From positions 62,001 to 126,000 of the forward strand of contig CACVBU010000973.1 in the NCBI GenBank assembly GCA_902728285.1: 64,000 bases of DNA, written 5' to 3'. The notes under the pieces were generated by a model that saw nothing but the letters and a program-made list of their open reading frames with translations, was not told the origin of the DNA and ran no database searches. This document shows positions 12,131 through 40,502 of this stretch, in pieces; the first letter of the stretch is position 1, and every line of letters starts with the position of its first letter. A program made the position numbers and the translations under genes. Source of the DNA: Clytia hemisphaerica. Taxonomy: Eukaryota; Cnidaria; Hydrozoa; Leptothecata; Clytiidae.

Positions 12131-15060
12131 ACATACTGTACCCTTATAATCATAAAGGTTGGTGAGTCCAGTCAAAACACAGATTTGATCTGCAGCGTCA
12201 TGCTTCACCTTACACCTTCACTTTACAAAATGGAGAAAGTTTTACAATTAACCAAGAAAAATGTCAAAATTTCTGAGAGATGGATTTTTGCATACTATCA
12301 TGTGTAAAAATCCTGAAAAAAGGAAGAAAAGTTTAGTACAGACCTTTTGCTATTCGCAATGTCATGTCTGAATGAATAAAAAACTCAAGCAGACTTATGA
12401 TAATATCTAAAATCCACTTTAACTAATTATACATTAGTGAGTTAATAATGTTTTAATGTTAGAGTTTTTAATTAATTATTTAATATGAAATCGTAAATAG
12501 CAAAAGGTCTATTTCCAAAATATAATTTTTTTTTAAATAAGGCTCAACAAATACAGGAAGGCCTTCTGAAGAATATTGGTCATTCCTGGTCAGCAAGTCA
12601 GTAACAGTATATAATAAAATTAAATCTCTAAAAATCTAGGATCAGAAGGTCAAGATCTAAAAAATTTGTAACATTTTAAAGCACCAGACTTTTTCCTTTT
12701 TATTGATGAATGATATTTGTGCCATTTCCATTGTGATATTTTGAATTAATTTAAGTTTTGGGATGAATTTACAAATACATTAATTTTCAACTTGTTCAGA
12801 CTTGTTCTATTTTGAAAAAAAGAGGGTAGGTCGGGCCTGTAGAACAATTAATTTGGTCTCAATGCCAAAAAGAAAAAAACTTTCAAACCAGGGAAACAAT
12901 TTCATTTTTCCAAAAGAATCCAAAAAAGGAAAATTCATGACAAAAGTATTACAGTAAACCACATTTTAAGCGCATGCAAAGGAAAGGTCATTATTCACGT
13001 CAAAAGTCTTCCAAGTTTTAAACGCACGTTGAAAGAAATCTCCAAATTTATGACCAAAGTTTTCCCCATTTTAAACGTATGTGAAGGAAAAGTTCATAGT
13101 TCACGACAAAAGTTTTCCCCATTTTAAATGCATGCGAAGGAAAAGTTCATGGTTCACGTCAAAAGTATTCCCCATTTTAAACGCATACCAAGGAAAATTT
13201 CATAGTTCACAACAAAAGTTTTCCCCATTTTAAACGCATGCGAAGGTAAAGTTAATAGTTCACGACAAAAGTTTTCCCCATTTTAAACACATGCGAAGGA
13301 ACAGTTCATAGTTCACGACAAAAGTTTTCCCCATTTTAATCGAATGCAAAAAGTTATTAGTTTACAACAAAAGTTTTCCCCATTTTAAACGCATGCAAAA
13401 AGTTAATAGTTCACGACAAAAGTTTTCCCCATTTTAAACGCATGTAAAGGAAAAGTTAATAGTTCACGACAAAAGTTTTCCACGTTTTAATAGCACGTTG
13501 AAGAAAATCTCCAAATTCATGGCAAAAGTATTCCACATTTGGAACGCATGCAAAGGAAAGTCCATAATTCACGACAAAAGTTTTCCACATTTCAATCGCA
13601 AGCGGAAGATAATTTCAAAGTTTGCGATAAAAGTGTTTGTGTATATGTGTGTGAGGTGATTTTCAATTGTCTACATCCATATTCAATGGAATTAGCTAAC
13701 TTTTTCAGAAGTTAACGTTCCCAGCGTTGTGTACGTAGCGTTGTGTACGTTCGGGTTGTCAGCTCTTTAAAATTTGTAAATTGGCCGCTATAGAATTTCC
13801 CTCACAAAGAGGTTTCACTTACCAGATGACTGGATGAGTGTCATTATTGTTGTAGAAGAAGCACCAAGTAAAATTCAATCATCAATAATCAGTCAATTTC
13901 ACTCCCAGGTTCAAATTTTTATACTTACTTACTTGGATAACTTGGAACAAAGGACCATAAAAGATTCTTCTTTGATGCTGACAGTCAGTGTTTTCTTTTT
14001 CAGATTTATCCACAAATATTCAGGCATATTATTCAGCCACTTGCCTTGTCACCACAATTTATGTAAATATACAGGCAAAAGTGCAGTTAGTTTCTTCTGA
14101 AAGTTGACAATCCCATCCTGCTGTTTTTTTCAACAGGAAGGTATAATAAGAAAACTTCATCATCATTAACCATTTCTTGTGTTGTGACAATCACACAAAA
14201 ATCATGATCCAATTCAACTCTTTATAAAGCACAAAAACCAAAGAAAAATTGTGAAGGAGCAACAGTTGTTGTACGAAGGTGGTACTTCCCTAGTTTGGCA
14301 ACAGCCTGACAGCAGTTTAATCATCATGTAGAAGGTGTATAAAACTCTCTTTGTTCTTGAACCAGCAGAAGAAGGACTATGCTGGCTATGCTGGCAAGAA
14401 GAGAAAGTTTTTTGTAGGTAGGCAATAGCAACCGGTTCAAATGAATAAACGCGCGGGAAAACGGAGAAAACAAGCCAATCATAGGAGTTCTTTTGCTGCA
14501 ATATGAGGATTTAGTGCGAAAACGGAGCGATCTGAGGAAACACGAGAGTCATGTAGCAATGCACGAAACAAAAAAGTTTAGCCATATAGGGAAATTTAGT
14601 ATATCGCGCGCACGTTTTACCAAACGAGATACGCGCTGCGCGCGCAATAAACAGACTGTACCTTTATAATCATAAAGGTTGGTGAGTCCAGTCAAAACAC
14701 AGATTTGATCTGTAGTGTCATGCTTCACCTTACACCTTTACTTTACAAAATGGAAAATTTTTTACAATAAACCAAGGAAAAAGTCAAAATTTCTGAGATG
14801 AATTTTTTTTGCAAACTATCATGTGTAAAAATACTTAAAAAAGGAAGTGAGTTACTGCTTTAATGTTAGAGTTTTTAATTATTCAAGATGAAACGTAAAT
14901 AGCAAAAGGTCTATTTTCAAAATATCATTTTTTTTTAAATAAGGCACAGCAAATTTTACTTATTGTTCTACAGGAAGGCCTTCTGAAGAATATGGGTCAC
15001 TCCTGGTCAGCAAGTCAGCATATAATAAAATCAAATCTCTGAAAATTTAGGGCTCGACGG
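12131..15060 (+). repeat. Direct repeats (0.45 kb) flanking a satellite-bearing block
   Basis: About 12138-12639 and 14657-15060 are diverged direct repeats. Shared landmarks in order are TAATCATAAAGGTTGGTGAG, CATGCTTCACCTTACACCTT, ATCATGTGTAAAAAT, GGAAGGCCTTCTGAAGAATA and TGGTCAGCAAGTCAG. They bracket the block at 12640-14650. I considered long terminal repeats, but the ends do not show TG...CA and no retroviral-type coding lies between, so insertion into a duplicated region is equally possible. Confidence 0.7.
12640..14650 (+). repeat. Composite dispersed repeat, copy A, with 53-bp satellite
   Basis: This copy matches 31247-33761 from TCAGAAGGTCAAGAT at the left to GAGATACGCGCTGCG at the right. 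Inside, about 12955-13630 is a tandem array of a roughly 53-bp unit (landmarks TTCACGACAAAAGTTTTCC and TTTTAAACGCATGC), about 12-13 units. To its right is a unique stretch with CCGCTATAGAATTTCCCTCA and a GC-rich end (CGCGCGGGAAAACGG). No long coding frame. It behaves as a mobile or segmentally copied unit; class unknown. Confidence 0.78.
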
Positions 15061-16690
15061 GTTGAAGGTGATGGTCATTAAAATAGGGCTTTTTAGCGAT
15101 CCTTTGCAAGAAGCCATGCAAATCTCTTAAATTGCAACGTTACAGTATTTTCCTTTTGAACTTCAGTTATAATCTGAAACTCAGATACCATCTGAGGCTA
15201 TTTCAATTTCTCTTAAACCAGAGAATAATCCTCGCAGCCCTAAAAACCGCATAGGAGGTGTTACCGGATTAAATCAAAGTTTTTGAGATTGCTAGTTAAG
15301 GCAGCGAAAAAGATTGTTTTTTATTGTTTTACCAAAGAGGTATATCGATTAGACATCAGAATCACCCCCGTTACGGTTATCTATCTCATTTTATTTTTGA
15401 TTTAAAATAAGATTTTAATTGTTTTTACCCCCGTCTCCTAGCTATTTCCGACTTTTTAAACAGTTTCCGCTTATTTCCGCATACTATCACGGGGGTCATT
15501 CCGGTCAGGAATTTATCCCTTTTTCAGAAGAAAAGGAAAAAAAAATTCTAGGTAACTGCCTTCATTAGCAATCAGCTTTATAAGATAGGCCACCCATTCA
15601 TTCAAAGAAATTCGTCGTTTTCGTTAATTTTACAGACCGTTAATTCCAGCCGAATAAGAACGAAACCGCGCAATCTGATTGGCTGAAATCTGAAATTCTA
15701 TTTTTCGCGCCGTCGCTATATGCAAAATTTTTCATTTTACTTTTTGGAGGCGGCAGAAAGAAGCAACAAGAACTGCAAGAAGTTAGTATTTTCCTATCTT
15801 TTCTTGTAGTTGCTTTGCCAATCAGCTGACTGATCAGTGTTTGATTTTTAATGGAAATGTTAAGATAAGTTGATTGATAGTATGAATGGCTCCTATTTTG
15901 GAAACAAAAGTACTTTAATTGTGGATAAAAGGGGTAAAATTTTTAACTTTTTTGGTTGTTCTAATCTAGCTAAACAAATTATATTTTCATCAGCTCTTAT
16001 CTGACTAAGTCATTAGAGAAGACTCTAAGATATTGTATATAGTTTTAACAAGCCTAGACTTTTTGATAAAATATACCAAAGTTAGTCTTCAAACAAAATG
16101 AAAGTAGACATACAGGCACAACAAGTGCCTATATATTTATTTAGAGTATTTTTGTAGTGGGAAATTTTGAGACAAATTTTTGTATATTTTTGCTTCTTTT
16201 TCAAGTATAGTAGTGATATGATATTCGTACTACAACTCTGTCTAGACATCTGTACTTGACACTCTTGTGCTGTTGTGCCAAAGGAGGCAGGCCAGGTATC
16301 CCCAAAATGCACTGGATACAACATACAGAGTGCGTGTAAAAATGGTACGTCACGGTAAAATATTAGTCTTAACACTGGACAAAGGGGCCATCCATTTAGT
16401 ACTACATACTGAGGGGTAGAGGGGGGTTAAGCAAAAGTACATTCATTTGTTTAAATGACAACATTTCTATTGTTTCTTGCGTTCAACAAAAGGGGGATAT
16501 CTATTTATGATAATATCATGGCAAAAAACTTTTATTGTGAATGCTATATGGATGACGTCAAAATCTGAAAGTGTATAATTTAGTTTTGCACGTGACTTTT
16601 TCTGTTTCCAATCCAGTGCACATCTGATAGGGTTGTTTTTTTTTGTCATTATATTGATGTTGAAGTTAGTGGCTGGAGTGTTTCATTATT
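15061..16690. other. No recognisable gene; possible promoter-like patch
   Basis: A+T-rich with no coding frame I can support. Around 15670-15730 the sequence ATTGGCTGAAATC (CCAAT-box-like) and a GC-rich stretch (TTTTCGCGCCGTCGC) resemble an upstream promoter region, but no gene follows on either strand. Confidence 0.35.
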
Positions 16691-16732
16691 CAATGATATG
16701 ATAATATTGGTTACAGTTGGCTAGAAAAGGTA

Positions 16733-16950
16733 CCGTGAAAAAGGGTAACTTGCATCAGTGGAGGCTAACATGCTTAGCCCTCAAATGAATGACCTGGCTG
16801 ATCATTAAAATACAACTACGCAGCTCCGCTCGCAGCTCTACTCTTCCATTTTTGTTTTGATTTATTTTTGTATTTTAATGACCAGCTGGGTCTTTCATTT
16901 GAGGGCTATGCATGTTAGCCTCCAATGATGCAAGTTACCCTTTTTCACGG
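16733..16950. mobile_element. Fold-back MITE inserted in a satellite unit
   Basis: A nearly perfect inverted repeat with arms of about 85 bp: left CCGTGAAAAAGGGTAACTTG, right CAAGTTACCCTTTTTCACGG, around a loop of about 50 bp. TA flanks both ends (16731-16732, 16951-16952), as for Tc1/mariner-type insertions. The flanking sequences GGCTAGAAAAGG and TGGTCATATCGATGGCTAGC join into one diverged unit of the 139-bp repeat found at 17160-17935. No coding capacity. Confidence 0.85.
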
Positions 16951-17159
16951 TATGGTCATATCGATGGCTAGCTTACTCTCTCGTGTACTACCAAATTGCT
17001 GGGGGTTGGAATAAGTGGGAATTCCTAAATGTAAAATTTGTAAAAAGAAGGCTTATACAGCAGAATTAGGGCAAAAGAGGGAACTTTCAAAAACATTTTT
17101 CCAAAAATTAATGAGCGGAGGGGTTGAAATAAGAATGTCCTGGGTGAAAAAATTAATTA

Positions 17160-17935
17160 GCTGGGGCGCTTATTAGGTATCAGAGAGTACGTAATTTCAC
17201 TTTTTTTTCAGATTTTTGTTACAATTTTTCACAGAGAATAGATTTGCTCAAATGTTTTTTTTTTTCAAATAACGTAGTGCTTCATGGTCACTAAGGTGGC
17301 TAGAATAGACATGGTCATTTCGACGGCTAACTTTACGTAATTTCAATTTTTTTGGAGAATTTTGTTACAATTTTTCATAGAGTTTTGCTCAAATGTTTTT
17401 TTTTCAAATAACGTAGTGGTTCATGGTCACTAAGGTGGCTAGAATAGGCATGGTCATTTCGATGGCTAGCTTTACGTAATTTCAAATTTTTTGGAGAATT
17501 TTGTTACAATTTTTCATAGTTTTGCTCAATTTTTTTTTTCAAATAACGTAGTGGTTCATGGTCACTAAGGTGGCTAGAATAGGCATGGTCATTTCGATGG
17601 CTAGCTTTACGTAATTTCAATTTTTTTGGAGAATTTTGTTACAATTTTTCATAGAGTTTTGCTCAAATGTTTTTTTTTTCAAATAACGTAGTGGTTCATG
17701 GTCACTAAGGTGGCTAGAATAGGCATGGTCATTTCGATGGCTAGCTTTACGTAATTTCAATTTTTTTGGAGAATTTTGTTACAATTTTTCATAGAGTTTT
17801 GCTCAAATGTTTTTTTTCTTCAAATAACGTAGTGGTTCATGGTCACTAAGGTGGCTAGAATAGGCATGGTCATTTCGATGGCTAGCTTTACGTAATTTCA
17901 AATTTTTTGGAGAATTTTGTTCAAATAACATGGTG
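17160..17935 (+). repeat. 139-bp tandem repeat, about 5.5 copies
   Basis: The word ACGTAGTG recurs at 17272, 17411, 17546, 17686 and 17826 (spacings 139, 135, 140, 140). Each unit contains TTCATGGTCACTAAGGTGGC, ATGGTCATTTCGATGGCTAG and a poly-T tract of variable length. More diverged half-units continue to about 18200, and one lies to the left, split by the MITE at 16733-16950. Confidence 0.92.
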
Positions 17936-18289
17936 GTTCTTGTTCACACAGGTTACTAGGATCGTCCTTTAAGTGATGGCACTACCAATTTTGTTTGATG
18001 TCTATTTTAGCTTTTTTTTGAAGATTTTGCAAAATAATTACTTTCTAATGGCTGGTCTTCCATAATTTTAAATTTTTTTGATACATTCATTACAATTTGT
18101 CAAAAGATTTGATCAAATTAATTAATATTCTAATGGTTCTTGGTCACAGAAAAGAAAAGCAATGGTCTTCAATGGCTAGCTTTACCTAATTTAGAGATTT
18201 TGACAAAAAATTATTTGGTAGTAGCCATCTATTATCTTTTACACAATCAAGAAACCTTGCAAAATTAATTTTGGGCTGTTTCAGGCTGT

Positions 18290-21200
18290 TCAGGCTAGAA
18301 TTTCCTCTTTTTAGGCAATTTTAAAATTTGAGACTTTACTTGCCGGTGTTTTCAAATAATGATTTCCTTCAATGTTTTTTGTTTTAAAATTAAATTAGAT
18401 AAAAAAGCAGTATGATGATTCAGTTCCCAATGCTATCAATAATGGTAGGACTAGTACTAGTAGTAGTCATGTAGAGTAAGAATACATAATACAGTAAGGG
18501 AAAGTATAAATTTTTACCTTTTTTTAATGTGTCTAAAACTGATAGAAATTAGGGATGTTATAGCTAGTTTTATGCAAAATTGACATGAAAAGCAAAGTTA
18601 ATTTTCTTTAGTGTAACCTCCAAAAGCAAAGGTAATTTTCTTATATAGTGTAACTTCCAGTGGGATTTCATTCATATCTTCAGCACAGAAAGTTATTTAC
18701 TGTTAGTTGACTCTTTCTTATTGAAGGCTGCTACATCTTTTCTTGGGATTTCGAAATTGCTCTAATATACCTTTCATTCCGGAAAGTGAAATTTTTACCT
18801 CTTTGGAAAGAAAAATTGAGTGGACAATTTTAAAGCTTTGTTAAGCGAAGATTAGCAAAGTTTTTCTTCTTTTTGTCCAGTGAAAATTGTCCTTATTTTT
18901 CAGCGTCCTTTTTTCCCTGGGTTGGTATTTTTATCCTATTAATATCGTGTTATAATGTAATTTATTCTATATTTTCTAGTATCGTAAAACGAATGATGGA
19001 ATCCGACAAAGAAGAATTCACATCGCAGTCGTGGGGTGTATAATGAATTTTTTTCTCAAGAACAATTCGAATACGGATAAATGGTACGTGGTCGAAAACT
19101 GTAGTGGAAAATATTTTCGCATCGTTGTTCCCTCTGAGACCTGGATATCACCATTTTAGACATTTGCTACGAAATTTTGAATTGCATCGGAATTGTATGG
19201 TCTACCTTCTGTTAAATAGGGTTTAATTTTATCGGACAAATCAGAGAATATTTTTGTTTTAAAGTATTTTATTCGTCAAACCTGTCACAAGTGGTTCTTA
19301 TGCTTTTAAAAATGTTTAACGAAATCTTGACTAGCACATCGGACATCTTTTATATGCTGATAAGGCGAAAAAGAAAAAATGTAGTGTTCCCGGAATGCGG
19401 GTGAAGTAAAAAAGCTCCCATGCGGCCGGCCGGAAATTTTTTTTTTGCGATTTCTGATAACTTTATATAGATTATTGAAATAGAACTTTAAAGGATAACT
19501 TTTATGTACAAGCAGTATGAAGTAAGCCCTGAATACTAATGTATCAACTACTAACGAAAGTCTGGTTTTTACCCGGCCTGTTTCCGGAAACACTACATTT
19601 TTGCCTAATATAGTTTTTTTTTCGCATAGATTATCGTGAGTTAAATCGTTAACCAAGTAAAGTTTATTTTCAGGCTCGTAAAATTTAATCCCGTAAAAAT
19701 TAGCTAAATGTTGAAGAATTTTATACTCTTGCAATAAAAATCTTGTTGTTAGGCCTCACTATCCGTACTAGTAATTTTTTATAACATTTATAGACCACTA
19801 TAGCGTAATTTATAGCTCTAGTATTTATTAAAAATGTATTAAAAAATGGATCAAAATGAAATGTATTCAATTTGTTTTGAAAGTTATCCCGCTAATTTCA
19901 AAAATTTTTAAAAGTTTTTACTTTTACATGTTACTGCATGTTACACAAGTGTTCCCGTTTCATATCGGACACATGTTCTATACCAGGACAATGTCTGCTT
20001 ATTGTTGTATTGTGCTAAATAAGCAAAAAATGTTTTCCTTTTATTCTTTCTGACCTGTCTTGCTTCTCATCCGTGTCAATTCATTATCAAAAAGCTTGTA
20101 AATTAAAATCGATGAATTAGTCATTCTTATTAAAAAAATCTTTTTTCAGCCGCCTTATACCGTACTTACCTATAACACTAACTAAGAAATTCAGATAGTT
20201 TTGCGTACAGCCACTTTTAAAAAAAGGCAAAACCATGCTGGCGCTTTATCCGAGAAAGAATTCGTGTGGCTCTCGTCTTTTTTAGCTGGTTAGCTCGGTT
20301 CATGTCTCGAGTTATTGGGAAATTTTGACTCTTGACGGAAATGTATTCAGATGAACTTTTGGATTGTTATATGCAAGTACGGTAATTTTCAAAAATTAAT
20401 ACAAAGGTCTAAATCTGAAGATCAATTTGCTTTTAGACAAACTCCCGCTTTATTATTTTTAAATGAAATTGTTCTGGCTAAGCGAGTCATTTTCTGAAAA
20501 TCCCAAACAACTTCAAAGATAATCTTAGAACTTTTTCTTTCCATTATAAATAAAAGATAATTGTGGTTGTGTTTCAACTCGATACTTCTTTCAACTTCAC
20601 ACTTTGACTGTCACTCCTATATATCTGGCTAATGGATGAAATTTTGCACTTTTTGTTCTTATTGGGCGTAGAAATTAGCTTTTACATTTAAGCTTTCCTT
20701 TACGCCCAAAGATTTTCATTTCAGACGCTGAATTCTTTAAGACTAGAGGCGGCATTTGTATCACCGTTTTAAATTTCTTACATTATCTAATTAGCCTGAG
20801 TCTGATTCAAGTATGAAACAAACCGCAGTTACGGTCAACTATAAAAAGTTCACTCAAGTATCAAATCGACCCGATTAGTTAAATCTCAAAACTATGCAGT
20901 GCTCGTAAAAGTGATTTGATATTGCTGAGCGGACTTTTTAATGGTTTAACATACTGTAGCTAACGGTACGTTGGTCATTTCCACAGATTATATAAATTAA
21001 GAGTGGATGAAATTATAAACCGAGGTTTTCTTTAACGCGATAAATTAGCAATTGAGTCTCTGAAAGGGTCCCAAAATTATTAAATAGAGAATAGTCTCTC
21101 AAAGGATCGATTTTCAAACTTCGACTCCGACATACCTGCGTCACCTTGCAGCCCTCCCCCGGGGGCCAGTAATCAAGGTAGGATAAATAATATACGTGAA

Positions 21201-21480
21201 CATCTAATTCGACGCGATTTTTGTTGTAACCGATACACTTATCTGATATTCCGATGGCAGATTGGCGGCCGCCCACGCTAAAGCTCTAAAGAAACGGGCC
21301 ATTGTAACTGCTGGGTTACCAGACCTCCCGCTGCAAAATTCTTGACGCGGTCTCGCTAAAATACGTAAATAGTAAACTTTCCAAATGTTGAAAATTTTCC
21401 CGACTTTCAGAGCTATAGCGTGTTGGATGAAAATTTCACCATCTTGGGTGCCAAATAACCGATACACCTCTTCGACCGTA
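18290..21480. other. No recognisable gene; one imperfect inverted repeat
   Basis: A minus-strand frame of 142 codons (19306-19734) lacks any motif I know and crosses an imperfect inverted repeat (19372-19402 against 19580-19607, both containing ATGTAGTGTT or its complement), so I do not call it a gene. A smaller stem (TTGGGCGTA/TACGCCCAA) lies near 20668-20710. The remainder is featureless. Confidence 0.4.
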
Positions 21481-21492
21481 GTTCGTGCGGGT

Positions 21493-21612
21493 ATTTTTTG
21501 TCCGCTTTATCCCACTTAAAACCGTCCCAATCCTTTTTGACGCATTTTTCTATTAATGCGAAAAAAGGAATGGGACAGTTTTAGTGCGGGATGAGCGAGG
21601 CGGACAAAAAAT
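21493..21612. repeat. 120-bp long hairpin (fold-back)
   Basis: Left arm ATTTTTTGTCCGCTTTATCC, right-arm end GGATGAGCGAGGCGGAC and AAAAAAT; arms of about 50 nt pair with a few mismatches and G-U-compatible positions around a loop of about 15 nt containing TATTAATGCG. It ends about 175 bp before the first ATG of the 21788-28053 gene. It could be a tiny fold-back transposon or a transcribed hairpin; the sequence cannot decide. Confidence 0.75.
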
Positions 21613-21787
21613 GCCAGTGCAGCAATTGGTGGGCTACGGTCAAAAAGGTGTATTGACTATTGGCGTTAACTGACTTAGTAGTTGTCTGACTGTAATAAGG
21701 TAGGTCGAAAAAGAAAGGGCTTTATGAATGGGCGTATGAACTCTGCTTAGTTGTGTAATACATTGTTTTTATATTTTTTAGAAAAAA

Positions 21788-24700
21788 ATGTCAGTAAATC
21801 ACCCACTTTGCTGTGGATTCATAAAATGTATGGTATATGAGCAGCTGACAGGTTCGGAAACTCTCTCTGCACAATACAAGCAGTTGAAGAGGGTATTCCC
21901 TCATTTGACAATCAGTGAATCTAGCTATAAAAATCGGGCTGGTAAAGTGAGAGAAAATATTTCAAAACTAAATAAGGCTGATTGTGCCAAAAAGTCGCTA
22001 TTCATAGAAACCTTTTGCCAAGAAAAATGGGCTTCATTGTTAGAGGGTGCAAAGAAAAAGCACGGAAATTTGAGTCTTTGTAAAGGGTGTTTAAACAATG
22101 ACAAATACCGGTTACCCTTATCGTATGTTCCAATCAATTCGGCAGAATGGCACAAAATAGCAACAGAGAATGGACTGTTTCGACCAGCAAGGCATAACAT
22201 CATTGACGAGACAAAGCGTGATATCAATGTATTGAACGGTAAATACAAAGAACAGTTTTCAGTAACTTTTGAAAATGCTTTGAAGATGGCGGACAAATCC
22301 ACTGTGCAGAAAAGATGGTCAACAGTTGCTCAAGAGGTCAAAGAGAACATTCAGGAACAGTGGAAAGAAACCGCTGTTGTCAGGTATTAAAATCCTTAAG
22401 AAGAACGGTTAGATTATTATTAGGTTATTATTAAGTTAGATTTCTATCAGGTTTTCAGTAAAAAACTAAAACTAAAGAGTCCAAAGACTAAGAGAGTCGC
22501 CTCTGTTTCGTAGGGCTGATCTACCACAACAGAAGACTTGAAAAATGAATTTGCTTTAGTTAGAAATTGAAATTTAATACAATTTTTTCTAAAGGGCCTA
22601 TGGAACAATGGAGTCGACAACATCAAGAAATCGGAAGAGAAAAGTACAAGCACTTGAGCCTTTTAAGGTAACCATGCAATTTTCAGCACAAAAAGCGGTG
22701 GCTAGAATTATAAAAATAATTTATATATTAAAATTAAATTTAACATTTCATAGGAAGCAAAATTGCGAACAATACAGAGGAAAGAAAAAGAAGCACAGGG
22801 CTTAGCGAAGCCATCAAATCATGTTGGTAATTTGGACAACTACGTATTCGATAGAGACGGCGTTATAAAGTTCGTAGAAAGCCTTCCCAATGACAAGCCA
22901 CCAATAATGAGGCAGATCGCAATTAATTTCAAAATAAAACACAAAAACGGCAATGTTCCCGAAAACGGGGGACAAATCATTTCCAATTTCCTTCAAGTTT
23001 CCAAAGTTGATCTTGATCGGTTCGGTGGCCAAACTGAACGGAAAAGATTGCGGATTCGGAAGAAAAAAAGAAGGTGCGTATTTTTGGCCTTTTTTAAATC
23101 AATATCATTCTCGAGTTTCAACTGAGAAACCTTAAACTAAGGTAACTATGGAATCTAAATATTTTTAAAGTTGGTGGAGAAAACTTGTTCTATTTTTTTC
23201 AGGATTCTCAAAACAAACATATCTGTGCCGATGGAAATATCAACGTTTGAATTAAAAAAGCAGTTAGCAGAAGAAGTCAAAGAAGTATTTCAAAGTTTTG
23301 TTTAGGCCTCCGATTAAAGTCGTTATATATTTTTTTAGAACAATTCAGAGAAAGTAACCACAAGCTTTAATCTTAATTGTTTAGCAAAAATTGTTTATTG
23401 ACAATTAGAGAGTTATTAAGTTTCACGAGAGATTGAATTTCGTGATTAAGCAAGTGCAAAATCAATTATATCCACGCAACGGATTGATCCACGAAACTTA
23501 TTGATTAAAAACATCTTTAAACAAAAATACTTAATTTACGAATTCTATTTTTTTTATCAGGGAAAGTATTCATTGGGAAAGCCTATTGTTCCACAGACTT
23601 ATGAAAAACTGGTAATGGATGACAAAGGAGAACCAACGATCACACAGTATACCACTGAGGGTAAAACCTAATCTAAACTCTCAGTATGAGAATGGACTCT
23701 TCCAGAAAAGGTCCGCACATGGGGGGATGGAGTATATAGTGTCCGGGCGGGTAGTGAAAAACCTACAAAATTTGCCTTGTCAGGGGTATATTCATGCTGA
23801 CCTATAAAAGCCAAATATTAGTCGAATATGTAAGGTTAGGTAAAATTGATTAACTGAATTGTTCCCGCTTCTAGTTCTAATGGAATTGTCTTATAGTTAT
23901 ATTTATATAATAAAGGTTAATTAAAAAAAAACACAAATTTTACAGGAAGAATGTTTACACTACAAGAAGTCCGCCAGACAATGTTCAATAAACAGGAAGA
24001 TTTCCTCAGGATTAAATCCGATGAATATTACGAAACGATTGGCGAGCAGGAGTTAAGTGATGAATTTGATCGGCTCCTCGAAAATTACGACCCAAAATCA
24101 CCGAACGAGGCAGTGCGTTTAAAGAAGTACCAGAGGGTCAGAACACTTGTATGTTGGCACGACTCGTCATCCGTCTCGAGCGCGTCTCACTTCCTCGTAA
24201 CATTCAACACGCTGTACGACCCAGCCATTTTCTTGACGGATGAGGAATATTTCAAAGGACAGGTAATAACATGTGATACTAGACTTTTTGTGGATGCAAT
24301 CAAACAAACAAAACATTAACACTGTACGATAAACATGCGTTATAAAATTGTCGTAAGGTCTCGTTTGTGAAATTATTATTTCATAATCATAGGATTAAAG
24401 GTAGATGTCCAAGAAACAGTGGAGCGACCAGAGACGTACATGTTGGCGCGATGCACGGCAGATAAGAACCAATTACTGTACAGCGAGATTCGATTGGATG
24501 ACATTAAAAAATGTGAGGCATCCCCAATCCAGATAAACAAAGTTCCAATACATGACCAAGTGCGATTTTTCAAAGGTAAACGACAATTTCATCCTAAAAA
24601 AGAAATAAAAAAATTATAGAAAGCTGTTTTTATGATAATACAAGTTACAGCAAACAGAAAGGCTCTCAAGATTTAAATTAATTATTATCTTATAGGAGAC

Positions 24701-27700
24701 GGCCCTGCTTGTCAGCTTGAGTCCGGACACCAGAAAGGAGGAAGGTATTTTTGTTGGGCGTGCGAAGTGGATGGGGAAAGAACATACGACCTTGCACATT
24801 CACTCAATACAAAACATGTCTCTCTCAATTCGAGAATCACTGATATGTTACAAACAACAGCAGGTCGAATAGGTGCTGAGAATGGCAGAACAAACTTTTA
24901 CGCTGATCTTGATAGAGAAGGCATGATTTCAGAGCTCCATCAAAGAAAGGTAGGTCAAAAGCTAGAGGGAATGATACATTTGGAGCAGAAAAATACGATA
25001 AGGCCATTCCTAGAAGAGTCCTCGGAAATTTAAGACCCTTGTAAATTTGGAAAGTTACTAAGACCAATAAGAAAATACTTTTAAATAGCATAGAAAGTAT
25101 TATTTGAATTGTTCCTAAAAAGAAAAAGATGTGTGGAAAATACAAACCATTCTAATATTTCAGAACAAAGACCAACTCACGAACAAAACCAAAAAACAAA
25201 TTGACAAGATTTTCGCCGAAACGGTCAAAGGCAAACAATGTTTCCCAGCTTTGGTTCACGGAAATCTTAAAGAATGTAAAACTGCTGTTCCAAGATATGA
25301 AGTGCTACCTCTTGAAGGTCTGCATACGATGGCTGGCCATATTAAAAACATTTATAATGAAATACAATACCACCTTAAGGATGAGGCAAAACTTAGGTTT
25401 CAACGGGTAATGAAAGCTACATTCTCTTCAAAAGAGGCAAAAAGAGGCTGTGATTACAGATTATCACTTTTAGAGATGACAATCTTCATGCTGACAAAAA
25501 ACTTTCTACCCAGTTATCATCTTCTTTTCACAACTCTGGTTGAGATACAAGGTATTGTCTACTCAAATGAAGAACACCGTACATCAAAAGCAATATTAAG
25601 GTTGCACCTCCTCACGTTTGTCCATGCATTGGAGTTTAAACGTCTGTTCCTGAAAACGAAGAAATTAACAGTAAGGAAGATGTTTGGCCAATATCATCAT
25701 GCTCTAATCATACATGCACCGCAGCAACTAAGGATTGTGTCTCTCTCGTCAACAAATGTTGAAAATGAAGAGCGACAATTCAATTTCATGAAAACTGCAA
25801 GTTCCCTAACATCGAACCACCATCCTGAGAATGTTCTTGTCAACTGTATAATCCGATTACAAGTAAGGGAAGTTTCTGATATTTAAGCTTTATGCGTCTC
25901 TATTAAAGATATAAACGACCATGGGGATACCCTGAAATAATATGAAAGTACTTTATGTTAAATAAAACGAAAGATGACAGATTGAACCTATTTTCTCTTT
26001 AGGCAACAACAGAATTCAGATCAGAGTTTCAAGAATTGATGACGGTTCCACAAGTAGAATCAAAGATCTCAAAGTTGGCAAGCTATTTTGAAAGTGAGGA
26101 TACCATTATTCCTTACCAAACGATCAAAAATTATCCACGAGAGTACCAAGCTTGCCTGGAAAGAATTGGAGACTACCTATTGGAGTCAAAAGTGTGGAAG
26201 GAGGTGGAAACTGGTGTCAAGTTTTATGATGTTTCTGGAGACTGGATGAAGCAGAGACATCATTTTCGAAACTTCACGCTTGAAGAAGAACTGGCATACG
26301 TTTCCAAATGCTGGACCAAGTGCCTAACCAGTCCGAAGTTGATACCAGCCAATACTATCATTGATAGTGAGGGGAAACGAACAACCATTGGCACGCTTCA
26401 GAAGTTTTCCACAAATAACAATCGCCCTATTCCTTTAATCCAGAAAGTCAAGTAAGGGCGAATTGTTTCCTAGCTCTAAGTCAGGCAATATTGGATGTTA
26501 CTGATTGAAGTATTTTTTTAATAAGTCAATCTATTACTGCGAGAAATCATACTGTCAGAATGGATATATCACAATAATTATTTCTAGTTGACAGATTTTA
26601 CACAGCTCAACTATTTGAATTTAAAGACATTGTGGTATAATTGATTTATTCTACTGTAATTATTTTAGCTCAATTCAAGATGTCACACCAATAAATCTCA
26701 CAGTGGAAGACCAAAACGAATCAATTGATGCTTTGGAATTGAGGTATAATATTTCTTATATGTTGTTTTCAGAAGCCATCTTTATCGCTTCGTAGTACAC
26801 TCTGTTAACATTGTCTGTTTTATAGAAATCTCAGTCTGATTTAAATCATGAATAAGGTAACAATAACAATAAAAAAACAAAATAATTTTAGCCTGAATGA
26901 CACACCAAAGGCAGACAGTCAAAATGAATCATTCCTGAATTTGGCATCCAGGTAATAATTCTTTAAAATACTTTTTTCCTTTCCCAACAAACTTTTCGAA
27001 ATGTTTTTTATATAACGTATTGAAACTTTTTTCAAACACCAGCAAGTCAAACAGGATAAAAAATTTTTTTAAACAAAATCTATTTAGCTCAACACAAGAG
27101 GATATCTATATGGATGACAAATTGAATGGACAGCAAGACAATCAGAATGAATCAATAATTGCTTTAGAATCAAGGTAACTTTTCTCATCCCTTATGAATC
27201 TGAAAAGACCATTTTGGTAATACCAACGTTTTCTTTTAAAATAATCTTGCACCTTGCATTGCATTTGCATTTTTTATGATTAGCAACATATTTTGTTTTA
27301 AACATTTAAATATGTTTAGCTCAACAGAGAAAGTGAACTACTTTCAACCCCTGTACAAAAGTAAGACTTGATATGTATATATTCATAGCTTCAAAAAATA
27401 CTACTTGATTTCTTAGGGATCAACTTTAACAGCTAAAATTGTAAAAAGCAATTATTTGAGTAATGAAATCTTTTTATTTTAGCACTAAGGATTCAACATC
27501 AACAACACCTTTTTTACAAAAATTATCAATCACTTCACCTGTCCCTACATCTCCATTTCTACAATCAACCCCAGCAACATCAAAGCATGACACAAGTCAA
27601 CCAAAAACACCACTCCAAAGGAGAAAGAAACAAGTTGCTCCAATCGATTTTCAGTGGGTAGGAGACAAAAAGCAGAGTAGAAGATCTTCAGAGTCCGCCC

Positions 27701-28053
27701 AACTTCAAGTTGCAAAAAGCAACACAGCTGTTGTTTTGAAATCACTATTACCTGATTCAAATTTTGACATTGAATATCAAAATATGAAAGCTAAATTTCA
27801 ATTGAACGAGTCTTTCTACTCAAAGGAAATGAAACTGTTGGTAGCAAAAATTGGTGTGCCACTTCAAGTGAAATTTGACGAGTCGTGGAAAATGCTAAAT
27901 GAGCTTGAAAAAAAAGCTTTGGCAAGTTCAGAGATTGTAAATGTTGTGAATGAAGATTCCATGTCTTTATACACAAAAGCTAAGAGAGAACTTGCTCTTT
28001 GCAAAAAACTTCAAAAAACCTTTTGTCTTGAAGACCCAAGCAAGGGGTATTAA
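21788..28053 (+). CDS. Large 14-exon protein, candidate RAG1/Transib-topology DDE transposase-like gene
   Basis: Coding exons: 21788-22383, 22595-22667, 22754-23073, 23203-23284, 23561-23660, 23946-24262, 24401-24575, 24696-24949, 25164-25862, 26003-26451, 26669-26743, 26892-26951, 27088-27174, 27483-28053. All are GT-AG and phase-matched; they sum to 3858 nt, one open frame of 1285 residues. Start is the ATG after TTTTTTAGAAAAAA. Landmarks: basic region about 204-215; LVCWHDSS (D463); GDGPACQLESG (D556); FCWAC (C574, C577); EVLPLEGLH (E690xxH693); HHALIIHAP (H818-x4-H823); NVENEE (E839-E842). This order, with Cys pair about 18 residues after the second Asp and the His pair about 19 before the last Glu, parallels RAG1 (D600, D708, C727/C730, H937/H942, E962). 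I recall uncharacterised anthozoan proteins like it. No frameshift or stop is seen. Function is inferred only. Confidence 0.85.
26669..27174 (+). repeat. Three tandem phase-2 cassette exons in the same gene
   Basis: Exons 26669-26743, 26892-26951 and 27088-27174 each start after TTTTAG or ATTTAG with one base completing a Ser (or Asn) codon and each end ...AG|GT, so all are phase 2 to phase 2. Their products share a core: DQNESIDALE, SQNESFLNLA, NQNESIIALE. They look like duplications of one exon; any can be skipped or repeated without breaking the frame. The last exon (27483) starts in the same phase with STKDSTST, similar to the cassette starts SIQD, STQED and SLND. Confidence 0.8.
27320..27360 (+). 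other. Possible fourth cassette exon, out of phase
   Basis: After TATGTTTAG the sequence encodes STEKVNYFQPLYK and meets AAAA|GTAAGACTTG, a good donor. Its start resembles the other cassettes (CTCAACA...), but its length (41 nt) shifts phase, so inclusion puts the last exon in another frame that ends at a stop within about 60 codons. It could be a decayed copy or a regulated alternative exon. Confidence 0.5.
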
Positions 28054-29100
28054 AATTACTATATTTTTCTAAATTTCAATTTCAATGACATGATGAATGG
28101 CTAAAAAATCTTTATTGGGATTTCTTTTAAGTGGTTCATCATGATACTTTCTGAGCATTTTAGGAAAGGGAAAATTTATATCAAGTTTTAAAAAGGGGTT
28201 ACGTTTGCATCTAATCCATAGCCAAGCAGCGGTGTCTAAATGTTTGAAAAATAACTCAGCGTTTTTGCCCAAAAAACAAAATTATAACAGTAACAATAAT
28301 AATTCATAATATATATTTTCTAGTATTTCTATTTATTCCAAATTTAGTTTCTTTATGAAATAGACATTTCAGTATCTTCAGACAAAGACTTCATATAGCA
28401 ATGGCCCACAAGGGTCAAGGACTCTTTTTTTACAAAGAATTTTGGTTTTTACAAAGAATCTTGGTTTTTGTTATGCTAAGAATCTTTAACTTTAGTTTTT
28501 ACTAAGAATCTTTGATATTAGATTTGGTTGACGATTAAACTGTTTTGAAAAATTAAGATTCTTCGTAAAAAAACAAATTGAGTTATAGTGAAAAAAAAGG
28601 AGTTTCAGTAAATATATAAAAATCAGGGAATGTCATTTATTCAATTATTTCGTAAGATTTTAATTAATTGTTATGCTGAAATATTTCCTTTTTTCGTACA
28701 TTAACGAGTTATAATCAAATAGAAATAATATTTGTATTTGTAATATTTTTGTCCAAATTTTAAGATATATATACCTTCCTAGCACTTTTTGAATTGTATT
28801 GTATATCAATATTTTACCTATGCAATTTCTTCTATTTATTAAAATATGATAAACTACGTATTTTGTTTATTAATATCATATTGTTTCAATAATCAATTGA
28901 ACAAGATAATTTATCCTGTTTGTACTGGCAATTTCTGTACACAGCTGCAATAAAAAAATAACAGCACTCATGAAAAATTATGTTTGTATCTTTTTTTAAA
29001 TGTTTTTTTTTGGTTAGACCATAATAGCAAAACAAGACTACCGAAACTTGATCTAATGTCGACATCCCTCATCTAAATCCGACACCCTTTTTATCAGCTG
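28054..29100. other. No recognisable gene
   Basis: 3' flank of the large gene. It is very A+T-rich; 28410-28530 contains several diverged copies of a short motif (ACAAAGAATCTTGG-like), and AATAAA-type words occur (for example near 28950). Nothing else is supported. Confidence 0.45.
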
Positions 29101-29102
29101 AA

Positions 29103-30832
29103 ATTGGTAGTTGAAAGGTCGATATTTTTCTTTGCTTATTGATCATATAGCAAGACATAGTAAGTATAAGCAGACTGTGCCTTTAATAGTGGTTTGGGAG
29201 AATGTAATAGTCTTTTGAATAACTAATTACTCCACAGCAGTTAGTTACCTAGAGACAAGAAAATTTATCACGCTTTTACTGGCAGAGGAAAAGTAATGTG
29301 GAGTAATTTGTTATTCAATAGATCGTTGTGTTCTCGTAAACAACTGTTAAACTTTAAAAAATTTCTGCGACAGTAGAAAGAACTTTCAATGAAGCACCCA
29401 AAGTCTACTGAATGAAGTTAAGTATATACATAGGATATTCTTATAACTGATATCAATGAACACATGTTTTGTTTTGCACTGGAGTTGGGTTAATGACGTA
29501 ACTGGCATGGCAACTAACTCGCCTACTGTTCCTACTGCTACTGCCGTTGGATGATTGTTTCACACGCTTTGGCACTACCACCCTCAAGACCATCGGGTTA
29601 TGCCAAACAACTTTATGCTAAGATGAATTAACTCGAATAAGAGAAAAAGCAATTTCAATTTGAAATGAGATAAGAAAAAATAAAACTGAAAATGAAGTTG
29701 ACAGGAACTAATGATAGCAGGACAAAAGTTTTTAAAAGTGACAGGACTATTTTTTAAGCTAGCTAAACCTTTTGAAAAAGTGGGTTCATAGACTCTCAAA
29801 GGAGTATTTACACTTTTGGGGGAGGCCAATGATGTTTATTCATGTTTTAACAAGATTTCTTCCTCAAACAGGACAGGACATACACTTAAATAGTGACAGT
29901 GAAGCTCCATCCAGTCCTTGCTTTTTTACAAAATATCAATCCCATTAATTTCCCCAGGGATAAATTTCTAGTATGGTAGTTGAAAGGTCGATATTTTCTT
30001 TGCTTATTGATCATATAGCAAGACATAGTAAGTATAAGCAGACTAGTGGTTTGGGAGAATGTAATAGTCTTTTGAATAACTAATTACTCCACAGCAGTTA
30101 GTTACCTAGAGACAAGAAAATTTATCACGCTTTTACTGGCAGAGGAAAAGTAATGTGGAGTAATTTGTTATTCAATAGATCGTTGTGTTCTCGTAAACAA
30201 CTGTTAAACTTTAAAAAATTTCTGCGACAGTAGAAAGAACTTTCAATGAAGCACCCAAAGTCTACTGAATGAAGTTAAGTATATACATAGGATATTCTTA
30301 TAACTGATATTCAATGAAACAATGTTTGTTTTGCACTGGAGTTGGGTGAATGACGTAACTGGCATGGCAACTAACTCGCCTACTGTTCCTACTGCTACTG
30401 CCTGTTGGATGATTGTTTTCACCGCTTTGGCACTACCACCCTCAAGACCATCGGGTTATGCCAAACAACTTTATGCTAAGATGAATTACTCGAATAAGAG
30501 AAAAAGCAATTTCAATTTGAAATGAGATAAGAAAAAATAAAACTGAAAATGAAAGTTGACAGGCAACTGATGATAGCAGGACAAAAGTTTTTAAAAGTGA
30601 CAGGACTATTTTTTAAGCTAGCTAAACCTTTTGAAAAATTGGGTTCATAGACTCTCAAAGTATTGACACTTTTGGGGGATTAGCAATGATGTTTTATTCA
30701 TGTTTTAACAAGATTTCTTCCTCAAACAGGACAGGACATACACTTAAATAGTGACAGTGAAGCTCCATCCAGTCCTTGCTTTTTTACAAAATATCAATCC
30801 CATTAAATTTCCCCAGGGATAAATTTCTAGTT
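29103..30832 (+). repeat. Tandem duplication of a 0.87-kb unit
   Basis: About 29103-29973 and 29974-30832 are the same sequence, highly similar by eye and differing by small indels. Shared landmarks: TGGTAGTTGAAAGGTCGATA, TTATTGATCATATAGCAAGA, CTACCACCCTCAAGACCATC and CCCAGGGATAAATTTCTAGT. Each copy contains CACAGCAGTTAGTTACC and GGAAAAGTAATGTGGAGT. The short frames are not conserved between the copies, so coding is unlikely. High identity implies a recent duplication or gene conversion. Confidence 0.88.
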
Positions 30833-31246
30833 AGAATACACAAGCAAGAATGCAATTTTTCTCAAAGAAATAAATAGGGGGTAGAATAGAAATACTTACG
30901 ATTCCAGATCTCTTGGGAGCTTGGGAGCAAAACCAAAGAAACATTTTCTGGTTCCTTCCTTGGACTTTCTCCATCAATTCCAGAACCAATGTGATTTTCG
31001 TTCAAAAAGTGGCTTGTAATTCATGGTACTTTACATATTACGGCTATAGCCATGAAAATAAAAATTGCTGACCCGCTTACTTACCCACACGCACTAAGAA
31101 AAATATTACTGGCGAAAGTCGAACTTTTTAGACGGAAACTTTAGTAAGACTGACCAAGAACCGGGAAACTCTCCATCGTACGGCTTCTACTGTAATTTTT
31201 TGAAACACACTCCCCCGTAGCCAAAAATCTTTACCTTCAACACGTC
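30833..31246. other. No recognisable gene
   Basis: Spacer between the 0.87-kb duplication and composite repeat copy B; no motif recognised. Confidence 0.4.
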
Positions 31247-33761
31247 GAGGGTCAGAAGGTCAAGATTGACATTTTGAAGCACCTGACTTTTTCCTCTTTA
31301 TTGATGAATGATATTTGTGTCATTTCCATTGTGATATTTTGAATTGATCTAAGTTTGGGATGAATTTACAAATACATTAATTTTCAACTTGTTCAGTGGC
31401 AAATCCAATATTATTATTTTTTCTATTTTGAAAAATTAGGGTCGGTCAGGCCTGTAGAACAACAAATTAATTTGATTGGTCTTACTTAATGCCAAAAAGA
31501 AAAAAACTTTCGAGTCAGAGAAATAATTTCATTTTTCCAAAAGAATGCAAAAAAGGAATATTCATGACAAAAGTATCAAACCACATTTTAAACGCATACA
31601 AAGGAAAGTAATTAATTCACGACAAAAGTTTTCCAAGTCTTAAACGCACGCTGAAAGAAATCTTTAAGTTCATAACAAAAGTATTCCACATTTTAAACGC
31701 ATGTGAAAGAAAAGTTAATAGTTCACAACAAAAGTTTTCCCCATTTAAAACGCATGCGAAGGAGAAGTTCATAGTTCACAACAAAAGTTTTCCACATTTT
31801 AAACGCATCTGAAGGAAAAGTTAATAGTTCACGGTAAAAGTTTTCCCCGGATTTTAAACGCATGCGAACGAAAAGTTAATAGTTCACGACAAAATTTTTC
31901 CCCATTTTAAACGCATGCAAAGAAAAATTAATAGTTCACGACAAAAGTTTTCCCCGTTTTAAACGCATTTAAAGGAAAATTTCATAGTTCACAGTAAAAG
32001 TTTTCTCAACTTTAAATGCATACAAAGGAAAAGTTGATAGTTCACGGCCAAAGTGACCCCATATTAAACGCATGCAAAGAAAAAGTTAATAGTTCACGAC
32101 TAAAGTTTTTCCCATTTAAAACGCATGCAAACGAAAATTTCATAGTTCATGACAAAAGTTAATCCCTGTTTTAAAAGCTTGCAAAGGAAAATTTCATAGT
32201 TCACGACAAAAGTTTTTCCCATTTTAAACGCATACAAAGGAAAATTTCATAGTTCACGGTAAAAGTTTTCCCAATTTTAAATGCATACAAAGGAAAAGTT
32301 GATAGTTCACGATCAAAGTGACCCAATTTTAAACGCATGCAAAGAAAAAGTTACTAGTTCACGACCAAAGTTTTCTCCATTTTAACGCATGCAAATAAAA
32401 AGTTAATAGTTCACGATTAAAGTTTTTCCCATTTAAAACGCATGCAAACGAAAATTTCATATTCACAGCAAAAGTTACAGTAATCCCCGTTTAAAAAGCA
32501 TGCAAAGGAAAATTTCATAGTTCACGACAAAAGTTTTTCCAATTTTAAACGCATACAAAGGAAAAGTTCATAGTTCACGAAAAAAGTTTTCCCCATTTTA
32601 AATGCATGCAAAGTAAAAAAGTTAATAATTCACGACAAAAGTTTTCCACGTTTTAATTGCACGTTGAAGAAAATCTCTAAATTCATGGCAAAAGTATTCC
32701 ACATTTAGAACGCATACAAAGGAAAGTCCATAATTCAACATGAACATATAATTCACGACAAAAATATCCCACATTTTTCAATAGGATTAGCTAACTTTTT
32801 CAGAAGTTAACGTTCTTTGTTGGTCATGTCCCTTGAGTGTGATGTACGTTCGGGTTGTCGGCGCTTCAAAATTTGGAAATTGGCCGCTATAGAATTTCCC
32901 TCACAAAGAGGTTTCACTTCCCAGATGAGTGCCATTATTGTTGTAAGAAGATGCACCAAGAAAAATTCAATCATCAATCACTCAATTTTGCTTCAGGTTC
33001 AAATTGTTTACAATTAATTACTTACTTGGATAACTTGGAAACAAACCACCAAAACGATTCTTCTTTGATGCTGACATTCAGTGCTTCTTTTTCAGGTTTA
33101 ATCCACAAATATTCAGTCACTTGCCTTGTCACCACAATTTAAGTATAATATACAGGCAAATTGCAGTTAGTTTGTTCTGAAAGTTGACAAATATTGTGTC
33201 CATCCTGCTGTTTTTTTCAACCAACCAACAGGGAAACAAAACAGACCTCATAATTCTGTAATTAACCATTCCATTTCTTGTCAAAAACCAAAGAAAAATT
33301 GAGAAGGCGAGCAACAGTTGTTGTACGAAGGTAGGCTATAGTTTGGCAACAACAGCAGTTTAATCATCATGTAGAAGGTGTAGATAACTCTCTTTGTTGT
33401 TGAACCAGCAGAAGAAAATTGAGGATCCAAATCAATGTCATTCCAATCCAATCCACAGCAAGCGGATGTGCTGGCAAGGCAAGACGCAAGAAGAGAAGGT
33501 TTTTTGTTGGTAGGCAATAGCAACCGGTCCAAATAAATAAACGCGCGGGAAGACGGGGAAAACAGACCAATCATAGGAGTTCTTTTGCTGCGACATGAGG
33601 ATTTAGTTTCGAAAGCGATGCGATCTGAGGAAACACGAGAATTTGGTGTCATGTAGTCATACACGAACACTGAATTTTCAAAAAAGTTTAGCCATATAGG
33701 GCAATTTAGTATATATCGCGCGCACATTTTACCAAACGAGATACGCGCTGCGGGCGCAATT
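31247..33761 (+). repeat. Composite dispersed repeat, copy B, with longer satellite
   Basis: Second copy of the 12640-14650 block. The left unique part (TCAGAAGGTCAAGATTGAC..., GATGAATGATATTTGTG) is followed by about 22 units of the 53-bp satellite (31560-32790), then CGGCCGCTATAGAATTT-type unique sequence and the same GC-rich right end (GAGATACGCGCTGCG). It lacks the 0.45-kb direct repeats seen around copy A and abuts ATTATTCGAATTTAATTAGC, the left edge of the next segmental duplication. Confidence 0.82.
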
Positions 33762-33762
33762 A

Positions 33763-34650
33763 TTCGAATTTAATTAGCGGGGGGGGGTCTTAATAGGAGC
33801 GGGGGGATGGATTTTTTTCTCTTAACAATTAGCGGGGGGACGTCTATTCGGGGGACAAGAGTATTACAATATCAATGAATAAATTGCATACAGCATGAAT
33901 GCGTTAACTTTGGGTCCGCTGGAGGTGCTCGTAAAATTAATGATCCTCCATTTCGGAAATTCTTTTTTTTTGTTTCAGGCTCTGTAATTGGTTCTCATTT
34001 TCATCGTCAGGCGCTCGCTGCGTTAAATTATATTACCGATACCGTAGCTTTGATAAGTGGTTTTGCAATCGTCAGACCGCTTGATAGTGAGGTTGTTAGT
34101 ACAGCTGTCGGGATTATTATTGGGGGATTTCTTTTTTACTCTCTAATCACGTGGATTGGTGGACGAATGCTAGATACGATCGTGGAAGGACAAGAGAGAA
34201 ATGAAGTTAATCAAAATGAAAAAGAAGAACTGAAAAATGTGTCAATCATGTGACTCGAATCCATACTATATTGAAGTGCTATCTAAGAGAACTTGAACTC
34301 AAATTTCAAGTTTGTATAGTGCGCTTTTATGAATGTTTAGAAACATGTAAGAAACATTTAAGGCTGAAAATACCGATTTCTTAATAAACATTGAGGCTGC
34401 TTGGTAAAACTAGTTTCTCAGATAAAGATTTTGAACTCTGCCGAATTTTTTTCCGGCGGAACCGGGCTCTTTGAAAAAGTGAGAAATTTGTTCGTATTGA
34501 AATTTCAGATAGTCTAGTAGTAATCGATAAGCTAAGTCAAACAGTTGATATTGATTAGCCTCGAGATAAGTACACATTGTACTACTTTACATCAACTTTA
34601 AAGAAAAGAAACATAAAAATTATTTTTTCTTTATAATCTGTTATTTTAAA
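33763..34650 (+). repeat. Segmental duplication, copy 1
   Basis: Matches 36375-37385 from ATTATTCGAATTTAATTAGC through a G-rich tract (AGCGGGGGG), the membrane-protein exon and TTTTTTCCGGCGGAACCGGG to ATAATCTGTTATTTTAAAGG. Copy 2 has two short insertions (about 35 bp and about 85 bp) in the 3' part that copy 1 lacks. Confidence 0.88.
33979..34253 (+). CDS. Terminal exon of unknown single-pass membrane protein, copy 1
   Basis: After TTTGTTTCAG an open frame of 90 codons runs to TGA. It reads SVIGSHFHRQALAALNYITD, then RPLDSEVVSTA, a hydrophobic helix (VGIIIGGFLFYSLITWIGG), and a charged tail rich in Glu, Lys and Asn ending NVSIM. The second copy (36584-36858) keeps the whole frame with only three or four amino-acid changes (V/I, Y/F, G/R), suggesting constraint or recent duplication. 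The exon enters in phase 1, but no matching upstream exon was found; an ATG frame just upstream (MNALTLGPLEVLVK) runs into the acceptor in another frame. I do not recognise the family. Confidence 0.5.
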
Positions 34651-34654
34651 GGTG

Positions 34655-40497: not shown

Positions 40498-40502
40498 CTC
40501 TT

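Follow-up and report, generated by a model that had tools for sequence, protein, structure and literature searches.

A gene very probably encoding a RAG1/Transib-like DDE transposase, in a 16.2-kb DNA transposon of the hydrozoan Clytia hemisphaerica

Results

The gene and the unit that contains it

We analysed a 64,000-bp stretch of the Clytia hemisphaerica genome (contig CACVBU010000973.1, positions 62,001 to 126,000 of the forward strand), hereafter the window. The contig is denoted C674, and C133 and C871 are other Clytia contigs with copies of the element described here. Our analysis showed that the window contains a gene of 14 exons (21788–28053, plus strand), which are joined across GT..AG introns into 1285 codons with a single terminal stop, as the initial annotation had proposed, and that this gene lies within a 16,197-bp unit with inverted ends (Table 1). 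Very likely, at a probability of about 0.92, it codes for the DDE transposase of a 16.2-kb Clytia transposon of the cut-and-paste type, and belongs to a cnidarian family with many members and a build like that of RAG1 and Transib.

Table 1. Positions in the window of the transposon, its gene and its target site.
Feature	Position	Strand	Basis
Whole DNA transposon, 16,197 bp, one recognised gene	15053..31249	+	98.7% identical unit on C133 with other flanks; right end also on C871
Left terminal inverted repeat, CTCGACGGGTTGAAGGT	15053..15069	+	begins exactly at the start of the homology between copies
Right terminal inverted repeat, CTCGACGTGTTGAAGGT on the minus strand	31233..31249	-	junction comparison, C133 and C871
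Target site duplication GG, left	15051..15052	.	diverged empty copy near 12640 has GA here
Target site duplication GG, right	31250..31251	.	junction comparison
Flanking repeat copy outside the element; its left edge shows the empty site	12635..14648	+	about 74–81% identity to 31245–33760
Exon 1, start codon	21788..22383	+	GT..AG splice joining; P0064 aligned from residue 1
Exon 2	22595..22667	+	splice joining
Exon 3, probable helix-turn-helix DNA-binding region (by eye)	22754..23073	+	similar stretch in P0058 and P0064
Exon 4	23203..23284	+	splice joining
Exon 5	23561..23660	+	splice joining
Exon 6, first catalytic Asp D463 (putative); 1 nt short relative to C133 near the 3′ end	23946..24262	+	
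Exon 7	24393..24575	+	acceptor 24393 suits the C133 reading; the frame of the initial annotation requires 24401
Exon 8, second catalytic Asp D556 and zinc pair C574/C577 (both putative)	24696..24949	+	
Exon 9, E690-x-L-H693, H818-x4-H823 and probable third catalytic residue E839	25164..25862	+	
Exon 10, conserved C-terminal domain	26003..26451	+	
Exons 11–13, mutually related (tandem exon duplication), low complexity	26669..27174	+	
Exon 14, stop codon	27483..28053	+	P0035, P0036 and P0047 aligned here

Ends and insertion sites

A search of the copies for inverted ends, suggested in the initial annotation, found terminal repeats of 17 bp with 16 matching positions and a longest exact run of 9 bases; the termini of the element read 5′-CTCGAC..GTCGAG-3′. 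None of 200,000 random pairs of 17-mers from the window matched as well. When the whole 200-bp ends were aligned locally, 80 of 300 shuffles reached the score, the match being limited to the outermost 17 bases.

The C133 copy is in reverse orientation. Its homology to the window runs from 15053 to 31249, with no piece longer than 300 bp beyond these limits in the 30 kb of C133 compared. An alignment of the two copies has 14,752 aligned columns, of which 98.7% are identical, and 2,097 gap columns. Self-comparison showed that the two units lie inside repeats of different kinds, and that in each case a second copy of the repeat represents the site without the unit. In the window, the flanks are ..TTAGGG and GGTCAGAAGG.., and a neighbouring empty copy, about 80% identical, reads ..CTAGGATCAGAAGG..; comparison of the flanks with this copy, one difference being allowed, indicates that GG is doubled. 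On C133, the flanks are ..TTTGTCTA and TAGTAGAAAG.. and the neighbouring empty copy reads ..TTTGTCTAGTAGAAAG.., which indicates that TA is doubled there. A third copy, on C871, has its right end at the same base within other flanks, and is seen at the right end only.

High identity in the aligned columns, and the further near-identical stretches in the assembly, would also be found if the 16-kb unit had been spread by segmental duplication or if one allele had been split over two contigs. This explanation is contradicted by the junctions, where the position of the right end is identical to the base in three contexts and that of the left end in two, and where inverted-repeat ends, 2-bp duplications and empty sites occur at two places; we find it barely credible. 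C674 and C133 as two alleles of one locus were also ruled out by the junctions.

The other groups of copies in Clytia (C857/C57, C374/C792 and C628/C802/C694/C303/C39) yielded no ends, their homology stopping in the coding sequence or beside satellites. Within the element, no open frame outside the gene exceeded 149 residues. Most frames of at least 60 residues were gapped between copies, and the ungapped ones had no silent excess. Ten further open frames had no convincing Pfam match to kelch, PHD or other domains (best E 0.017). The element looks like a one-gene element, though a further gene of many short exons is possible.

Some structural variation was seen in and around the element. It contains a tandem duplication of about 858 bp (29105–30831), and much of this region is a gap in the C133 copy. 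In a further copy, at L036 (C871) 1892–4466 and L034 (C427) from 5097, about 2.6 kb is inserted where the window has 26549–26560, and 12 bases are repeated at the edges of the insert; the C427 copy is also without window 23461–24575. The element is flanked, at 12635–14648 and 31245–33760, by repeated units that include a 53-bp minisatellite.

Coding sequence and selection

The gene model was backed nearly end to end by relatives, as P0064 of Hydractinia covers residues 1–877 and P0035 covers residues 338–1276. The claim in the initial annotation that the exons join without a lesion is, however, doubtful. The window and C133 copies were compared near the end of exon 6, where C133 is 1 nt longer, and the relatives favour the C133 reading. 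For the window frame to stay intact from exon 6 into exon 7, the acceptor must be at 24401, 8 bases past 24393. The C133 reading outscored that of the window in 54 of the 61 relatives matched by both, and gapless alignment was obtained with 52 of the 61 for C133 and with 5 for the window. Because of the 1-nt length difference in exon 6, the C133 copy has many stops when read through the window's own junctions. These comparisons suggest that the window copy probably carries a 1-nt frameshift or an assembly error, rather than being truly spliced at 24401.

Exons 11, 12 and 13 are interrelated, each pair scoring above all 500 shuffles, and they have a phase in common, which points to tandem exon duplication in a low-complexity tail. 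A fourth relative of them, recognised by eye at 27320–27360, breaks the frame; this 41-bp candidate exon was omitted from the model. A foldback sequence (palindromic, resembling a miniature inverted-repeat transposable element) lies at 21420–21680, about 100 bp 5′ of the start codon, and was recognised by eye and partly from the inverted-repeat list.

Of the changes between the coding sequences of C674 and C133, 19 are silent and 5 are replacements, at 813 silent (S) and 3042 replacement (N) sites. The silent divergence (dS) is 0.0234 and the replacement divergence (dN) 0.0016, with a ratio of about 0.07. The transposase was strongly constrained while the two copies diverged. This silent excess, together with the different insertion sites, is as expected if a working transposase moved the element recently.

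A low dN/dS, with 5 replacement against 19 silent changes, and the presence of 14 exons would also suit a host gene that was domesticated from a RAG1-like transposase and has a fixed place. However, an active transposon also gives constraint between transposed copies, and CACTA transposases are likewise described with differing exon numbers (PMC4158355). Moreover, the flanks of the unit differ among its three places; it carries terminal repeats, and target duplications are present at the two places seen at both ends. Domestication is therefore quite improbable. The initial annotation had proposed either a transposase or a domesticated gene; insertion at three sites, inverted ends and duplicated targets speak for the former, and the latter is not supported for the window copy.

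The protein family and its distribution

Three protein searches gave 16, 17 and 82 matches, amounting to at least 108 distinct relatives (P0001–P0108). This count is a lower bound, as scoring in the last search was confined to the 7,992 candidates that shared most words. The organism was given for nine of the 108: Clytia (P0016, P0046), Hydractinia (P0018, P0064), Hydra vulgaris (P0048, P0050, P0052, P0105) and the sea anemone Actinostola (P0058). Many relatives are 800–980 residues long. P0016, an NCBI protein of C. hemisphaerica, is identical to the exon 9 end and matches residues 812–1049 at 99%; it derives from the C133 copy, as a gene model that spans 238 of the 1285 residues. In the 417-Mb Clytia assembly, at least 108 stretches matched the family, several per copy and several with stop codons, which is again a lower bound, with 99 of 373 candidates scored. 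No relatives were found in scans of viral contig and genome contig collections.

RAG1-domain genes are reported as 42 in Hydra viridissima, 13 in H. vulgaris and one in Clytia (PMC7642931), and Hydra genomes are stated to contain CMC-EnSpm, CMC-Transib and CMC-Chapaev-3 elements (PMC12220107). As Hydra genome papers list such elements and RAG1-domain genes, part of the family may already be catalogued. No published description of the family was found among the titles and openings of abstracts listed.

Candidate catalytic and zinc-pair residues

The residues quoted in the initial annotation were all found in place (D463, D556, C574/C577, E690/H693, H818/H823 and E839–E842), as were the gaps between them, and its mouse RAG1 numbering (D600, D708, C727, C730, H795, H937, H942 and E962) was verified on PDB chains. 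Their conservation was analysed by aligning the window protein with 68 of the 108 relatives, for the most part the longer proteins; the counts below refer to the rows spanning a column, gaps included. The residues proposed as the catalytic triad were kept in nearly all relatives: D463 in 41 of 43, D556 in 50 of 51, and E839, E841 and E842 in 54, 48 and 52 of 58. Conservation was similar for C574 (51/54), C577 (52/54), E690 (65/65), H693 (64/65), H818 (55/59) and H823 (54/59). The exceptions include D556H in P0080, H693R in P0064, C574R in P0021 and H823N in P0002. P0008, outside the aligned set, has Y in place of H693, and both putative zinc-pair cysteines are replaced in the Clytia family copies on L020, L026 and L027 (C628, C802 and C694). 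Relatives at about 28–69% identity in the aligned part retain these residues, which indicates a pattern beyond chance. D482, kept in 41 of 45 rows, was considered as the first catalytic Asp and rejected; it is nearly as conserved, but is placed after strand 2 in the model.

The third acid, for which E839–E842 had been offered, could probably be narrowed to one residue. E839 had no replacements, only four gaps, and is the sole one of the three Glu residues that is never replaced; E841 gives way to Q in five rows, and E842 to G and to K in one row each. As E839 is also aligned by eye with RAG1 E962, it is probably the third catalytic residue, rather than E842. The C-terminal block of mouse RAG1, HzTransib and the window protein, aligned by eye and without statistical weight, reads HKTLAH, HKLLIH and HALIIH, respectively, and by eye the three proteins also have in common E-x5-F followed by EDVL, EDIL and ENVL; this alignment speaks for E839 as the third acid.

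Predicted fold and insertion domain

The RNase-H-fold DDE core with a helical insertion, as initially proposed, agrees with the predicted fold of a relative, for which RAG1 and HzTransib were the best matches. The structure was predicted for a Hydra relative 36% identical to the window protein, and its fold is confidently predicted as RAG1-type. The match spans RAG1 residues 487–1006, approximately, and the solved RAG1-type structures among the matches listed were RAG1, BbRAGL and HzTransib. A search of a viral structure library gave no match at E up to 0.001, and an AlphaFold prediction from exon 9 alone, without relatives, was uninformative (predicted local distance difference test score 38).

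The spacing from the second Asp to the H of the LH motif is longer than in RAG1 (D556–H693, 137 residues against 87). On Pfam searches, the best matches of the 69 family rows were MRNIP (2 rows, 0.00028), UPF0697 (1 row, 0.00049) and the T4 endonuclease VII dimerisation domain Endonuc-dimeris, which was matched weakly by 8 of the 69 rows (best E 0.0007). SAP was matched by 2 of the 69 (best E 0.12). The model suggests that a SAP-like helix-loop-helix may be placed between the CxxC and LH motifs.

Other features of the window and of Clytia contigs

Outside the element, a retroelement at 40498–43123 has a reverse transcriptase and a tyrosine recombinase-like Phage_integrase domain below the Pfam cut-off, and is DIRS-like. 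Pieces of helicases were found at 5455–6129 (plus strand; RecQ-type, with Helicase_C and a RecQ zinc-binding domain just under the cut-off) and at 57763–58296 (minus strand; DEAD-box, under the Pfam cut-off). A weak DDE_1 match (E 0.0016, under the Pfam cut-off) at 50517–51275 on the minus strand is perhaps a fragment of a pogo-like transposase. The stretches 33758–34652 and 36378–37380 form a duplication of 91–99% identity, in both copies of which a small open frame is preserved. At L042 (C374) 1590–2297 there is an insert of about 707 bp that is not in the C792 copy; its ends are inverted (GGCTCTGACCATAGT), TTTAAG is repeated at its edge, and it is perhaps a non-autonomous TTAA-type element.

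Discussion

Evidence against the transposase reading

Our case stands on conservation within the family and on the predicted fold, not on sequence similarity to RAG1, and a number of results weigh against it. With E up to 10, the only Pfam match of the window protein was GeBP-like_C at 0.33, and no transposase model was among the best 25 of the 56 families weakly matched by the family rows. The PDB search gave one chance-level match for the window protein (E 0.57) and none for the family profile, and neither of the two matched the HzTransib chains at E up to 10. Mouse RAG1 scored no higher against the window protein than shuffles did, in Smith-Waterman and in global alignment, and hhalign of the family profile against a single RAG1 sequence gave no significant match. 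A four-sequence hidden Markov model of the RAG1/Transib C-terminus aligned at the right place (E 0.065 in a search of one sequence), but some of 5,000 shuffles had higher scores. The modelled protein is the Hydra relative and not the window protein itself, and the window copy is possibly frameshifted. As for the ends, both were seen at only two of the three insertions, and the empty site of the window is a diverged repeat copy with GA where the doubled pair is GG.

Relationship to known transposases

We took the CMCT group to comprise CACTA/EnSpm, Mirage, Chapaev, Transib, RAG1, Plavaka, ESTA and Lanisha. Its members are described as having C(2)C and H(3-4)H between the second D and the E, with three H in total, CA..TG ends in most cases and target duplications of 2 to 5 bp (PMC12730594). 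The Clytia family resembles this group in its D, D, E triad, in the RNase-H fold modelled for a relative, and in a C(2)C, an H(3-4)H and a further H conserved between the second D and the E; the 2-bp duplications at two sites are within the range of the group. However, the ends of the Clytia element are not CA..TG. An RNase-H core with an insertion is also a likeness to the P element and other RNase-H transposases.

Chapaev is described with C(2)C, LH and H(4)H, with 5′-CAC..GTG-3′ ends and with duplications of generally 3 to 4 bp (PMC4079192). All three motifs are present in the window protein, and by published description it likewise bears the C(2)C, LH, H(3-4)H signature of Mirage and EnSpm/CACTA. 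A serious candidate, if somewhat short of an even chance, is therefore a diverged lineage of CMC elements (Chapaev, Mirage or CACTA), possibly entered in Repbase under such a name, and the CMC elements reported in Hydra genomes are in its favour. In contrast, the CTCGAC..GTCGAG ends and 2-bp duplications differ from those of Chapaev, and no Chapaev, Mirage or CACTA model in Pfam matched the window protein at E up to 10. The Pfam models of KDZ and hAT transposases had no match to the window protein at that threshold either, and were not among the best 25 of the 56 families matched weakly by relatives.

True membership in Transib, or in the RAG-like (RAG1L/RAG2L) transposons, would explain why RAG1 and HzTransib are the best folds and why the order D, D, CxxC, H, H-x4-H, E is held in common with RAG1, as is, by eye, the C-terminal pattern E-x5-F .. 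E-[DN]-[VI]-L. RAG-like transposons are described with a convergent RAG2-like partner and, in invertebrates, the tail motif Cx2Cx3GHx4C; cnidarian RAG1L/RAG2L pairs are given for Porites, Orbicella and Aurelia (PMC7204232). In the Clytia element, no RAG2-like partner was seen among the open frames, where a gene of many short exons would escape, and a pattern search of all 1285 residues found no such tail motif. The 2-bp duplications, the ends other than CA..TG and the lack of a sequence match also argue against membership, and the window protein differs from RAG1 in its long extra N- and C-terminal parts as well as in the Asp–H spacing. Transib target duplications are of 5 bp, and the HzTransib chain has 497 residues against 1285. 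The structural matches listed included no transposase of the CACTA, Mirage or Chapaev kind, so that RAG1 is perhaps just the nearest solved fold. We consider this membership unlikely.

Our reading of the gene as a transposase is that the element works like RAG1/Transib and stands near the CMCT group; no named superfamily was assigned to it. That it represents a separate, undescribed and cnidarian-only superfamily of RAG1-type transposons, moving recently in Clytia, is a tentative proposal to which we would give nearly even odds. The hallmarks of such a superfamily would be CTCGACG.. ends, 2-bp duplications that need not be TA, one large gene with many exons and an additional module, perhaps SAP-like, located in the RAG1-type insertion.

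In the most likely mechanism, two transposase molecules would bind the 17-bp ends, and D463, D556 and E839 in the RNase-H fold would hold two metal ions and cut the DNA in the manner of RAG1, possibly with hairpin formation. A zinc bridge between C574/C577 and H818/H823 may hold the helical insertion in place above the active site. Joining of the excised unit to its target with a 2-bp stagger would then produce the 2-bp target duplications.

Implications

RAG1, the enzyme that cuts and rejoins vertebrate antibody genes, is derived from a transposon. Its solved relatives are few (RAG1, BbRAGL and HzTransib among the matches listed), and the family described here is a new outgroup for the evolution of RAG1; if it is a separate superfamily, it would be a sister lineage for tracing the origin of RAG1. 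The family is multi-copy in hydrozoans and had no transposase model among the matches listed, and genes annotated as 'uncharacterized protein LOC...' in Hydra, Hydractinia and Clytia look like transposases. Clytia is a laboratory animal with a recently moved RAG1-type element, whose defined ends allow tests of cutting and joining.

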